Below are positions 9,770-14,432 of a DNA stretch of 64,000 bases, piece by piece. Each line of letters begins with the position of its first letter. The first letter of the stretch is position 1. The DNA comes from Candidatus Crickella equi (lineage in GTDB: Bacteria; Bacillota; Clostridia; Peptostreptococcales; Anaerovoracaceae): contig JAGHUP010000001.1 in NCBI GenBank assembly GCA_018064755.1, positions 1 through 64,000 on the forward strand, read 5' to 3'. A program made the translations under genes and the position numbers. Under the pieces are notes generated by a model. The model was not told the origin of the DNA, searched no databases, and saw nothing but the letters and a program-made list of their open reading frames with translations.

Positions 9770-10186
9770 TTATCTTCCCCTGTGCTTCTCTTTTTTCTTT
9801 TGCTGTTTCAGTTCAAACTTTCGTTTCTCTTCAGCGGCTTTCTGTTCGCGACTTTTTACTTTACGTTCCAGTTTGTTCTGCTCCTGTTGTAATTTCAATG
9901 CCTGCTGGGATTTTGTACCTGCTCCGGTTTTACCGAGAGACCGCTTTATTTCCCGCTGCATTTTCTTTGGATTCTTTTTTGTTTCCTCTACAACAGCTGC
10001 CACAGCAGGGCTGAACTGCAGGCTGTAATAGTGCTCCAGGATGAACTCATACACGTCATAGTCCTTTGGTTCAGAACCAAAAGTAACTTTAGTTGCAGAT
10101 AGTTTTCCGTTTTCGTATCGTTCAAAAACCCCTACCCAAAACGGCTCCTCAAAAAACACTGTCAGTCTGGTCTTTACTTCACCCAT
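9770..10186 (-). CDS. yjdF: YjdF family protein
   Basis: TRLTVFFEEPFWVGVFERYENGKLSATKVTFGSEPKDYDVYEFIL; Lys/Glu-rich C-terminus. Confidence 0.88.
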   Translation of the reverse strand: MGEVKTRLTVFFEEPFWVGVFERYENGKLSATKVTFGSEPKDYDVYEFILEHYYSLQFSPAVAAVVEETKKNPKKMQREIKRSLGKTGAGTKSQQALKLQQEQNKLERKVKSREQKAAEEKRKFELKQQKKKEKHRGR

Positions 10187-10189
10187 GAC

Positions 10190-10420
10190 AATCCCTCCTT
10201 CTTAATTGTTATGAGCAAAGAATGGACAACCCGGAGGGGCAGGTTACTTACCACGATAATTCGTGACGGCCGGGCTACCTACCGGCTCTGGCATGCAAAA
10301 GCACACGTTGCGTTTTTATCTCTGCGATTAATATATAATCAGACCTTACGGTCGGATTTACAAATTCAAATTTATATGTCTAAATACTACACGATTTCGG
10401 TATCATTTGCCATTGCCATC
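10190..10420 (-). ncRNA. Candidate yjdF-type (azaaromatic) riboswitch
   Basis: ~230-nt leader directly upstream of yjdF with paired segments (TCCGACCGTAAGGTCTGA; GCCGGTAGGTAGCCCGGC; CACGAATTATCGTG; CCTGCCCCTCCGGG). No covariance search run. Confidence 0.6.
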
Positions 10421-10859: not shown

Positions 10860-12641
10860 TTATCCGGGTTGATTTTGAGAAAAACATACTATAATGGTAG
10901 TATCAGCTGTTATTGTCTGCGAGTCTGGATTCAGCACAAAGCTATGAAATGTCCAGCCATTATTTGCTACAGCATGGTATCCATTTCCTCCAATCGTAAT
11001 TGTGCTACCATCGACATTGTATGCCGTTCCGCTCGGAACGATTAATTCTGTTACTTTTTGTCCATTTATATCCTGCACCTCACCTGTTTCTATATCTTGA
11101 TCTTTTTCCGGTTCAAAAGTTATGGTACAGGCCGGTGCGTAGGTGCCTACTGCATTTAATACATTTTCATCTGCACCTTCCAGGGCTTTAACCTCAATGC
11201 TTTCAAGCGTGTCTTTATTTGTCATGTTAAAAGTTACTGTATATTTCATATAGTCATTGCTGTAGGTATATGAATCACCATTCTTCTCTGCATTGTCGGA
11301 GGCCATTCCGCTATAAGAAAGCTGAAGCAATGGGTCGGATTGGGAATTAGCCTTTACATAAAGAATGTTAAACAACAAATTATTATATCCATAAACTCTA
11401 TTATTTGGTTTAGAGCTATCCATCCATGCATTTGTGGGAATATCGTTAGTATACATTGGGAAGTTAACAGTCTCGATAATGTCAACAATTCTTCTAGTCC
11501 ACCTAGCATACAATGTCATATCAGCTGTTACAGGGGAATTAAAATCCCACTTATTAGAGAGCGTTCCGTCAGCGTTTTTGGTCTTGTACCAACCCTCTAA
11601 GGTATGATTTGTAAACGTTGGATTTGGCTTGGTAGCCGTGCCCCCGCTTGCAATCGTCTGTGCAGTCGGTACTTCACCGGTTGCGCCATTCAGGTCGAAT
11701 GATACTGTGTATTCTGTTGGTGCAGGCGGTGGTGTTGGATTCTGTGACCACTTTGCATAGAGGGTTGTATCTGTAGTTACTGTATCTTCGTTGAAGTTCC
11801 ATGCATTTGTGCATGCTGCTTCCTTGTACCAGCCGCCAAATGTATAGCCTGCTGCTGTTGGTGCCGTTGGTGCTGAAATCTTTGAACCGGAAATAACATT
11901 ATTGAGCGGATCAATCTGTGTACCATGACCCTGCATATTGAATGTAACTGTGTATTCTGTTGGTGCTGGTGGTTCAGAAGACTTAACTGTAACAACTGTC
12001 TTGCACCACAAACCGCCTATGTCCTGAACATAGATTGTTGCTGCGCCTTCCTTATTAGCAGTTATAACACCATTGGCATTTACACTTGCTACAGTTGTGT
12101 TGTCAGAAACATATCTTGTTGCAGCTCCGTGGCTCTTCTTGATATGCTTCTTGTTCTTGTAGATCTTAGTTGTTGCTTTAAGAGTTGCTGTTTTGCCTGG
12201 TTCAAGAGTCACGGAAGTTGGGCTAACCTTGATGCTCTTGGCATTGGCATATTTGCCCATTGTTTTGCCTGTAATGAAGTGAATGCTCTTACTTGTTACA
12301 AGCTTCTTACCTCCTTTATAAGCAGCCACATAGAACTTGTAGTTCTTGTGAGCTTTAAGTTTTGTTTTCTTAATCTTCTTTACTTTGTAAGAAGTCTTGG
12401 ATGTGGTTGTAAGTTTCTTATACTTCTTGCCACATTTCTGTCCATATACTACATATTTAGTTGCTCCAGACACCTTGTTCCAAGAGAGCTTAACTGCCCT
12501 TGAACCAGATGTTGTAGCCTTAACCAGTTCTACTGGTACCGTAGTATCTGCTTCACCTGCAAATGATATGCTTGCCATTGCCGGCATCATCGTTATCACC
12601 ATTGCGAGTGATAGCAGAATGCTAAATAATCTTTTCTTCAT
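10860..12641 (-). CDS. Secreted protein with Fn3-like, Big_2-like and InlB B-type repeats
   Basis: Signal peptide MKKRLFSILLSLAMVITMMPAMASISFAGEA; two GGWYKEAACTNAWNFNEDTVTTDTTLYAKW-type repeats. Confidence 0.85.
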   Translation of the reverse strand: MKKRLFSILLSLAMVITMMPAMASISFAGEADTTVPVELVKATTSGSRAVKLSWNKVSGATKYVVYGQKCGKKYKKLTTTSKTSYKVKKIKKTKLKAHKNYKFYVAAYKGGKKLVTSKSIHFITGKTMGKYANAKSIKVSPTSVTLEPGKTATLKATTKIYKNKKHIKKSHGAATRYVSDNTTVASVNANGVITANKEGAATIYVQDIGGLWCKTVVTVKSSEPPAPTEYTVTFNMQGHGTQIDPLNNVISGSKISAPTAPTAAGYTFGGWYKEAACTNAWNFNEDTVTTDTTLYAKWSQNPTPPPAPTEYTVSFDLNGATGEVPTAQTIASGGTATKPNPTFTNHTLEGWYKTKNADGTLSNKWDFNSPVTADMTLYARWTRRIVDIIETVNFPMYTNDIPTNAWMDSSKPNNRVYGYNNLLFNILYVKANSQSDPLLQLSYSGMASDNAEKNGDSYTYSNDYMKYTVTFNMTNKDTLESIEVKALEGADENVLNAVGTYAPACTITFEPEKDQDIETGEVQDINGQKVTELIVPSGTAYNVDGSTITIGGNGYHAVANNGWTFHSFVLNPDSQTITADTTIIVCFSQNQPG

Positions 12642-12746: not shown

Positions 12747-13562
12747 TCATCGTCTTGATGTTATTAATCTGCCTTTTAGATAAAGATTGCCTTTCATGTT
12801 GGTTTTTATCGGTGTTATGTGCTCCTTGGCAGTTAGATATTGAAGATTCTGTCTGGAACATTCAAGCAATTCACAAGCGCCAGATGAATCCACAATGTTC
12901 ATTTTTACAAACGAAATGAAATTCTCCATTGTAAGAGGAACTCCAACGCCCTTTTCATATAGATAAATCGCAGGAATATCTATAGAATCATTGAATGTAA
13001 CGCAATACCCTCCAGCTGCAACATGCCCGGACATAAACAAGTCTTCATTGGCAATGACTTTGTCAACGCCCGAACAGGAAAGGCATTCATCTATTTGAAC
13101 TTTTCTTACTGTTTCATCATTAAAAAATAACAATAGCGAATTATCTTGGCAGGTAACGCACTCCGATATGTTGTGTTTCATCCGTTCCTTGACATAGTCG
13201 AATGGCTCGGGCAGCTCACGAACACGGATATAATCCTGACTGCTTGCACCTCTTGATTGCACAAGAAGCGCAAACTCGTCATACTCATGAAGCTTGGCAT
13301 TTACCAGAATACTATCAATATTCTGGCGGTCATTTGGTACTATTCTTTCCTTCACCCACAATGCACTCTGTTCTCTTGATGCCGTAAAGCGCCCCTCTTT
13401 AACCATATTCGAGAAAATTAATGGTGCACTCCACTCATCCAACGCATCATCAAGCTCTATGATAAATGAGCGCTCTTTCTCATAATATAATAGGCATCCG
13501 ACAGATAAGCCCTGATCATTATCGAACATTTCATAGACTTTCATATAGCTTATACCTTTCAT
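12747..13562 (-). CDS. Partner of HipA-like kinase with C-terminal HTH
   Basis: C-terminus DSSGACELLECSRQNLQYLTAKEHITPIKTNMKGNLYLKGRL resembles AlpA/MerR-like HTH; overlaps the kinase ORF end. Confidence 0.65.
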   Translation of the reverse strand: MKGISYMKVYEMFDNDQGLSVGCLLYYEKERSFIIELDDALDEWSAPLIFSNMVKEGRFTASREQSALWVKERIVPNDRQNIDSILVNAKLHEYDEFALLVQSRGASSQDYIRVRELPEPFDYVKERMKHNISECVTCQDNSLLLFFNDETVRKVQIDECLSCSGVDKVIANEDLFMSGHVAAGGYCVTFNDSIDIPAIYLYEKGVGVPLTMENFISFVKMNIVDSSGACELLECSRQNLQYLTAKEHITPIKTNMKGNLYLKGRLITSRR

Positions 13563-14346
13563 ATATCATTTCCCAGATGCGATTAATATGTAACTCTGAA
13601 ATAATTCCATCAAGATCTGCAAATATGTACTCTCTGTCATCTTGCGTCAGGTCTCTTGCGAAAACCTTTCTTCCATTAAGCAGTTTAAGATTATCCAAGC
13701 ATGACCTACTTCCTATGAAATTATTAGAAGTTTTATCCTCCATCACATCGAAGTTTTCTATTTCTTTTTCATTTCTACAGAATGATAACAAAGATATTCC
13801 GTGGTCAAACAGTGGTGCTACGCGCAAAGTTTTCTTTCTTGAATTTCGAAGTAATTCGATATTCGCCCCGTGTCTATCCCTGTTTCCGATTATATAATCT
13901 ACGGCTATCATCGTGTCTATGTAATCTGAGAGGCCCAGGCGCTTGCAAAAGTCATACTCATCTTGCGCATTTATGCGTTCCTTGTTTTCTCTATAGTAGG
14001 TATCCATCGCAATCTTGCTTTCTCCGCGTTCCTTAAAATCCTCTGATGAACACAAATATGTACAATAGCGCTTGCCATCGATCTCGATTTCTGCATTGAT
14101 AAGACTATAACTGAGATGCTCTACTCCGAGCACAGTTAGTAGCCTATCGACAATGATTTCGTTAACGCATTCATGGCCAACGATACCATCACCCTTTACA
14201 TAATTAGATAACTTATAATAGTTTTTCTTTCCATGCAGATTAGATTCGGATTTAAGGAAAGACCCTGCAGTACCGCTTGAACTACGTACATGAGACCATT
14301 TTAAATAAGTTAAATCCTGTTTTTCTAAAATTACATTAGCCTCCAT
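13531..14346 (-). CDS. Compact HipA-like Ser/Thr kinase
   Basis: DYIIGNRDRHGANIELL and VAPLFDHGISLL catalytic motifs; start set to ATG at 14346 behind AAAGGAG (track start 14370 lies in an operator palindrome). Confidence 0.8.
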   Translation of the reverse strand: MEANVILEKQDLTYLKWSHVRSSSGTAGSFLKSESNLHGKKNYYKLSNYVKGDGIVGHECVNEIIVDRLLTVLGVEHLSYSLINAEIEIDGKRYCTYLCSSEDFKERGESKIAMDTYYRENKERINAQDEYDFCKRLGLSDYIDTMIAVDYIIGNRDRHGANIELLRNSRKKTLRVAPLFDHGISLLSFCRNEKEIENFDVMEDKTSNNFIGSRSCLDNLKLLNGRKVFARDLTQDDREYIFADLDGIISELHINRIWEMIYERYKLYESL

Positions 14347-14360
14347 TGTTTCTCCTTTTA

Positions 14361-14419
14361 TTTGACGCACGTCAAATTTCTATGTGAAAATTGTACCATT
14401 TTATTTGACGCACGTCAAA
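14361..14419. promoter_or_regulatory. Twin palindromic operators upstream of the HipA-like operon
   Basis: TTTGACGCACGTCAAA at 14361-14376 and 14404-14419 (43-bp spacing), each inside TTTTATTTGACGCACGTCAAATTT. Confidence 0.85.
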
Positions 14420-14432
14420 TTTTTCATATCCT

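Follow-up and report, generated by a model that had tools for sequence, protein, structure and literature searches.

A HipA-family kinase with a downstream HipS–DUF2442–HTH partner, a probable autoregulated toxin–antitoxin module in Candidatus Crickella equi and rumen Lachnospiraceae

Described Hip systems and the locus in the window

In hipBA, the kinase HipA carries its lid, N-subdomain 1, in its own polypeptide, and the gene for its antitoxin, the small HTH protein HipB, lies upstream of the kinase gene. HipT of the three-gene system hipBST (gene order B, S, T) lacks N-subdomain 1, as do the short kinases HipG, HipI, HipJ, and HipM (PMC8262856). Its lid is supplied in trans by HipS, which blocks HipT via the active site, with Trp65 wedged under the HipT Gly-rich loop (PMC10627512). 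A kinase-first order is already described for hipAB, hipEB, hipIN, hipJS, and hipMP (PMC8262856). In hipIN, the HipI kinase is paired with HipN, a HipS-like–HIRAN protein (Gerdes et al. 2021; PMC8262856). HipA-DUF3037 systems (DS-6/HipAD, Retron-Sda1 effector, PDC-M66) combine a compact HipA-like kinase with a partner that has a C-terminal DNA-binding part; in one such pair, deleting the partner was toxic, and phage defence required the kinase (PMC12548924). DUF2442-HTH antitoxins are found in DUF4160/DUF2442 pairs (dhiTA), listed as a toxin–antitoxin (TA) system (PMC8198452).

The locus analysed here lies in a 64,000-nucleotide stretch of DNA, hereafter the window, and consists of the following features.

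13531..14346, minus strand: kinase gene, 271 aa, from ATG 14346 to a stop ending at 13531; compact HipA/CtkA-type Ser/Thr kinase without an N-terminal lid
14352..14357, minus strand: kinase ribosome-binding site AAGGAG, read from the sequence
12747..13544, minus strand: partner gene, 265 aa from ATG 13544; start and overlap as in relatives
13209..13544, minus strand: partner domain 1, lid of the HipS / HipA N-subdomain-1 type, residues ~1–112 (hhalign, Foldseek)
12945..13181, minus strand: partner domain 2, DUF2442, residues ~122–200 (Pfam, hhalign, Foldseek)
12750..12932, minus strand: partner domain 3, MerR/excisionase-like winged HTH, residues ~205–265 (phrog, Pfam, Foldseek)
14403..14420, no strand assigned: predicted operator O1, palindrome ATTTGACGTGCGTCAAAT on the minus strand, containing the −35 hexamer
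14360..14377, no strand assigned: predicted operator O2, palindrome identical to O1, between the −10 box and the ribosome-binding site
14390..14418, minus strand: promoter, TTGACG (14418–14413), 17-nt spacer, TACAAT (14395–14390), with TG ahead of the −10 box

A kinase profile scan of 84,980 species genomes returned 366 relatives, and the best 80 were kept for comparison. These 80 are close (at least 58% identity), and many come from metagenome assemblies.

The nearest described system is hipIN, equivalent to PADLOC PDC-M03, with HIRAN replaced by DUF2442-HTH. The correspondence of PDC-M03 to the hipIN organisation follows from a related locus (L020), in which a kinase is paired with a HipS-like–HIRAN protein; this HipN-type protein matches PDC-M03B at 6e-107 and carries Couple_hipA and HIRAN. 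As in hipIN, a short kinase comes first, followed by a predicted antitoxin with an N-terminal HipS-like lid and a C-terminal putative DNA-binding domain. Unlike in hipIN, the partner ends in DUF2442 and a winged HTH, without HIRAN, and the module has a conserved twin-operator promoter.

The module shares with hipBST a kinase devoid of N-subdomain 1, a lid supplied in trans, and a repressor HTH that autoregulates, the last being a prediction here. It differs in having two genes instead of three, in placing the kinase first with the S and B functions fused, in having a MerR/excisionase-like HTH with DUF2442 instead of the XRE-type HipB, and in having Arg at the position of HipS active-site Trp65. 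An earlier note on this DNA had stated that the layout is not that of three-gene HipBST. This stands for the gene count, but in function the module seems to be a HipBST in which S and B have been joined and placed after the kinase. A HipA-family kinase with an autoregulating HTH partner is also common to hipBA and the reversed hipAB and hipEB, but here the lid sits in the partner and the HTH gene is downstream. The kinase-first order, which the same note had called the reverse of classical hipBA, is as it described, but such an order is not new. HipA-DUF3037 partners have different domains by sequence, and those systems act experimentally as TA-type phage defence. In dhiTA, DUF2442 is paired with a DUF4160 protein, whereas here it is paired with a kinase.

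The organisation kinase plus HipS–DUF2442–HTH is absent from the published survey of Hip kinases (PMC8262856), and our literature search found no paper on HipS–DUF2442–HTH partners. This new gene organisation has many relatives in gut anaerobes and suggests how HipA-family toxins swap regulatory modules. One lid type is found in several settings: fused in cis, alone in trans, with HIRAN, with DUF2442-HTH, and apparently also with an N-terminal XRE HTH. The last setting is found at two loci (L023, 806–2244; L026, 868–2220, reverse complement), where an N-terminal XRE-type HTH is fused to a HipS-like segment directly upstream of a short kinase. The lids were read by eye, and the HTH of L023 was identified by Pfam. 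These are apparently independent HipB–HipS fusions in canonical order.

Domains of the kinase and the partner

The kinase of 271 residues from ATG 14346, claimed earlier on the basis of HipA-like motifs, is present with all its elements: the open reading frame, GNRDRHGANIELL, and LFDHG. The Gly-rich loop SSSGTAG comprises residues 22–28, the catalytic residue is D157, and D181 is positioned to bind Mg. Across 77 aligned sequences, the catalytic set K45, N155, D157, R158, N162, D181, and G183 is invariant, as are the loop residues S23, S24, G25, and G28. With its Gly-rich loop, catalytic Asp, and Mg-binding DxG, the kinase belongs to the HipA-homologous superfamily. Judged by profile, it is of the PDC-M03A/HipI type: PDC-M03A matches the window kinase at 1.3e-11 and all 28 kinases tested (best 1.1e-13). 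PDC-M66A is matched by 2 of the 28, weakly, and Pfam HipA_C scores 18.1 bits on the single sequence, under its cut-off of 30.5.

The AlphaFold2 model of the kinase has a pLDDT of 90; the Gly-rich loop (residues 21–27) alone falls below 50. Foldseek with this model returns CtkA (1e-10), HipT of HipBST (7e-6), and HipA (1.4e-5). CtkA, a Helicobacter pylori kinase, is the best match in both structure and sequence, and the sole significant PDB match in a profile search (E 1.1e-7), but its identity to the kinase is ~17%. The N-terminus is ~20 residues ahead of the Gly-rich loop, and HipA N-subdomain 1 is missing. Judged from sequence and model, the kinase is a HipA that has lost its lid to the partner protein. 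Two further HipA-family kinases are encoded in the same small genome, making three with the module kinase: a full-length, lid-bearing HipA (425-aa frame; L001/L160, G000:C11) and a fused lid-kinase (448-aa frame; L002, G000:C4).

The mechanical open reading frame of the partner spans 13562–12747. Homologues begin at the next ATG, the equivalent of 13544, and a ribosome-binding sequence, AAAGG, precedes this ATG at 13559–13555. Therefore, the partner probably starts at ATG 13544 and has 265 residues, and its gene overlaps the kinase gene by 14 nt. The overlap noted previously is thus real; an overlap of 14 nt is the commonest among relatives and is present in most of the 80.

A single-sequence PDB search with the partner gave no match. 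The AlphaFold2 model of the partner has a pLDDT of 92.5. The earlier note had called for models of both proteins; they give a CtkA/HipT/HipA-like fold for the kinase and a lid, DUF2442, and an HTH for the partner. The description of the partner as mostly uncharacterised no longer applies, as its first ~200 residues resolve into a HipS-type lid and DUF2442.

The lid aligns in hhalign (E-values are for single comparisons) with the N-terminal lids of ~390-aa clostridial fused HipA-like kinases (97.4%, E 1.3e-11, 98 columns) and with the HipS-like domains of HipN-type proteins (97.3%, E 2.6e-11, 45 columns). These HipS-like domains align in turn with classical HipA N-domains (85.8%, E 5e-6), and one HipN-type protein passes the Pfam Couple_hipA cut-off and has HIRAN too. 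Foldseek with the partner model returns Shewanella oneidensis HipA (prob 0.98). Compared directly with classical HipA N-domains, the lid profile aligns collinearly, but the match is weak and not significant (E 0.057); the claim of lid homology therefore rests on the intermediates. By these comparisons, the lid appears to be encoded in trans, as in hipBST. A DUF3037 identity of the lid was ruled out by sequence. The partner contains no DUF3037, and neither the host genome nor a sample of 250 genomes from its phylum has a match to it.

Residues W63, R67, P70, R73-Q74-N75, and Q103-D104 of the lid are invariant. In the collinear alignment, the position of HipS Trp65 corresponds to the invariant Arg73, inside an invariant P-x-x-R-Q-N motif, indicating that the plug, if any, differs from that of HipS. 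Some HipS proteins lack the Trp as well (PMC10627512).

The second domain is assigned to DUF2442 by Pfam in 5 of the 26 aligned partner members (best 8.6e-7) and by Foldseek (2auw NE0471, prob 0.99). The second protein of an apparent DUF4160 / DUF2442-HTH pair encoded in the same genome aligns with the partner over domains 2 and 3 (hhalign 95.8%, E 7.4e-9); the DUF2442-HTH half therefore looks like a module common to another antitoxin family. The C-terminal HTH anticipated in the earlier note is also real: phrog_4691 excisionase matches the window partner (E 4.9e-13), HTH_17 is found in 18 of the 26 aligned members, and Foldseek returns the MerR-type CvkR (prob 0.99). From sequence and model, the partner appears to unite an antitoxin of the HipS kind with a repressor of the HipB kind in a single protein encoded downstream. 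The apparent DUF4160 / DUF2442-HTH pair mentioned above (L130 1224–1920, G000:C5) is adjoined by a RelB/RelE-like pair at 502–1048 (by eye), forming a compact cluster of two candidate toxin–antitoxin modules.

Operators and conservation of the gene pair

The near-consensus promoter upstream of the kinase gene is the best-scoring promoter of the region. O1 and O2 are two perfect 18-bp copies of ATTTGACGTGCGTCAAAT, with centres 43 nt apart, on either side of the −10 box. The window contains four matches to the palindrome pattern (two sites on both strands), compared with 0.62 expected. In the host 1.39-Mb assembly, O1 and O2 are the only sites within 2 mismatches; a regulon-wide role of the operator was rejected, as the host genome has it at this promoter only.

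In relatives, the 200 nt ahead of the kinase gene were also searched for the twin operators, allowing up to 3 mismatches to ATTTGACGNNCGTCAAAT. Among the best 80 of the 366 relatives, all 80 have such a site and 62 have at least two. In 47 of these 62, the spacing is 40–45 nt, usually 41–45 nt. The 80 loci hold 146 sites in the 16 kb that precede the kinase genes versus 9 in 844 kb elsewhere. A −10 box (at most 2 mismatches) follows the operator-internal TTGAC by 16–18 nt in 78 of the 80, by exactly 17 nt in 72, and it is nearly always the upstream operator copy that holds the −35 box. The twin operators proposed in the earlier note are perfect palindromes in the window and are also kept in relatives. 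At one locus (L073, position 4765), a perfect operator copy lies beyond the promoter region, 1.2 kb ahead of the kinase gene.

The palindrome is absent from loci whose partner is a short, lid-only protein devoid of an HTH (L009, L010, L011, L013, L143). In a second HTH-bearing clade (L006–L008), the −35 box is likewise covered by a palindrome, a TTGAC-centred variant such as ACTTGACATATGTCAAGT. Therefore, the palindrome is most simply the partner's own predicted binding site.

The 80 relatives come nearly all from rumen or gut Lachnospiraceae (Butyrivibrio, Pseudobutyrivibrio, and others). Conservation of the gene pair across genomes, which the earlier note had named as a check, was found at every checkable locus: among the best 80 of 366, the partner lies directly downstream of the kinase in 79 of 79, and the 80th is at a contig end. 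Both genes are under purifying selection (dN/dS 0.04–0.29 in 14 close pairs), and the distance matrices of kinase and partner correlate (r 0.76, 0 of 2000 permutations). The proposal of a coupled, autoregulated kinase/HTH unit is strongly supported, at the level of sequence, by the co-varying trees and the purifying selection on both genes, together with their pairing, overlap, and operators. Every other neighbour family is found in at most 13 of the 80 loci, indicating that the pair is a stand-alone two-gene cassette. A larger conserved operon or a defence island was rejected, as the 80 loci lack a recurrent neighbour; most of them are flanked by ordinary chromosomal genes.

Of 47 genomes from the host genus, 2 carry a close kinase, and it is absent beside the nine same-genus copies of the upstream neighbour gene that were compared. 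One close relative is on the rumen plasmid pNP95. The patchy distribution is the pattern expected of a mobile toxin–antitoxin module. The viral contigs searched contain no relative, and the phage records searched contain distant kinases only. One assembly, of Lachnospiraceae isolate Tb.RUG.54, holds two different copies of the module (L057 and L105).

Proposed mechanism and competing explanations

We consider it likely that the pair is a two-gene autoregulated type II toxin–antitoxin module of the HipA family; it has the small operon, overlapping genes, and operator-bearing promoter of that class. Kinase and partner would be translated together and assemble with each other, so that the lid domain of the complex may cap the kinase in trans and block the Gly-rich loop, by analogy with HipS and HipT. 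To judge from the positions of the sites, the HTH of a dimeric partner would bind O1, over the −35 box, and O2, covering the early transcribed region too, and exclude RNA polymerase. The two operators are ~four helical turns apart, on about the same helix face. Loss or displacement of the partner would derepress the operon and free the kinase, which, by analogy with the targets of HipA and HipT, would phosphorylate a host target, probably in translation (e.g. an aminoacyl-tRNA synthetase), and stop growth. Phage infection is a plausible trigger, since a defence role has been proposed or tested for the related hipIN/PDC-M03 and HipA-DUF3037. With twin operators conserved, autoregulation can be put directly to the test, and the Arg-Gln-Asn motif could show clearly whether HipS-type inhibition holds in general.

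Several findings count against the toxin–antitoxin reading: the weak direct match to HipA N-domains, the replacement of Trp65 by Arg73, the ordinary chromosomal neighbours, and the fused relatives, whose lid in cis suggests that kinase activity may depend on the lid structurally. The main rival is accordingly a two-subunit signalling kinase, in which the kinase needs the partner lid to be active and the HTH serves to localise or autoregulate the complex. The homologous lid of fused clostridial kinases is consistent with this, as are the membership of HipA's own N-subdomain 1 in an active toxin and the ordinary genes that adjoin most loci. However, this pair has the patchy, mobile distribution and the predicted tight autoregulation that TA modules typically show. 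HipBST uses a detached lid as its antitoxin (PMC10627512), and in a HipA/DUF3037 relative it is toxic to lose the partner (PMC12548924); we regard a signalling kinase as rather improbable. A chance juxtaposition of a kinase relict and an unrelated regulator, to which nothing but the weak single-sequence Pfam scores would point, is already refuted by conservation, given the 79/79 pairing, the 80/80 operators, and the invariant active site, and we give it practically no weight.

Two further explanations are specific forms of the preferred toxin–antitoxin reading. The module may be dedicated to abortive infection, with a phage product, or phage interference with DNA, displacing the partner and freeing the kinase. 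The matches to the PADLOC candidate defence models PDC-M03A/B and the defence by HipA-DUF3037 systems in Escherichia coli (PMC13092281, PMC12548924) point this way, but the PDC-M03A/B matches are distant and the 80 loci lack a defence-island context, leaving this form possible but doubtful. Alternatively, it may be an addiction module only, persisting by post-segregational killing without benefit to the host. The copy on pNP95, the patchiness in the genus, and the autoregulation are in line with addiction, but most copies lie beside ordinary chromosomal genes and both genes are under strong constraint, the latter a weak point since addiction alone could explain constraint too; this form seems unlikely. 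In its boldest version, which we advance tentatively, the toxin–antitoxin reading makes the module an anti-phage or stress switch, widespread in rumen Lachnospirales, that joins HipS plug and HipB repressor in one polypeptide. A DUF2442-HTH from an unrelated TA family would have been grafted onto a detached HipA lid, DUF2442 would sense where HIRAN is thought to sense in hipIN, and an Arg-Gln-Asn plug would replace the HipS tryptophan.

Directly downstream of the pair, the window encodes a putative secreted protein of 593 aa (10860–12641, minus strand) with repeats of Ig-like and Listeria–Bacteroides-like appearance; it does not recur next to the pair at other loci. At 10206–10329 (minus strand) lies an azaaromatic (yjdF) riboswitch, which scores 72 bits with Rfam RF01764 (gathering score 45), just upstream of a 138-aa open reading frame at 10186–9770 that is presumably yjdF.
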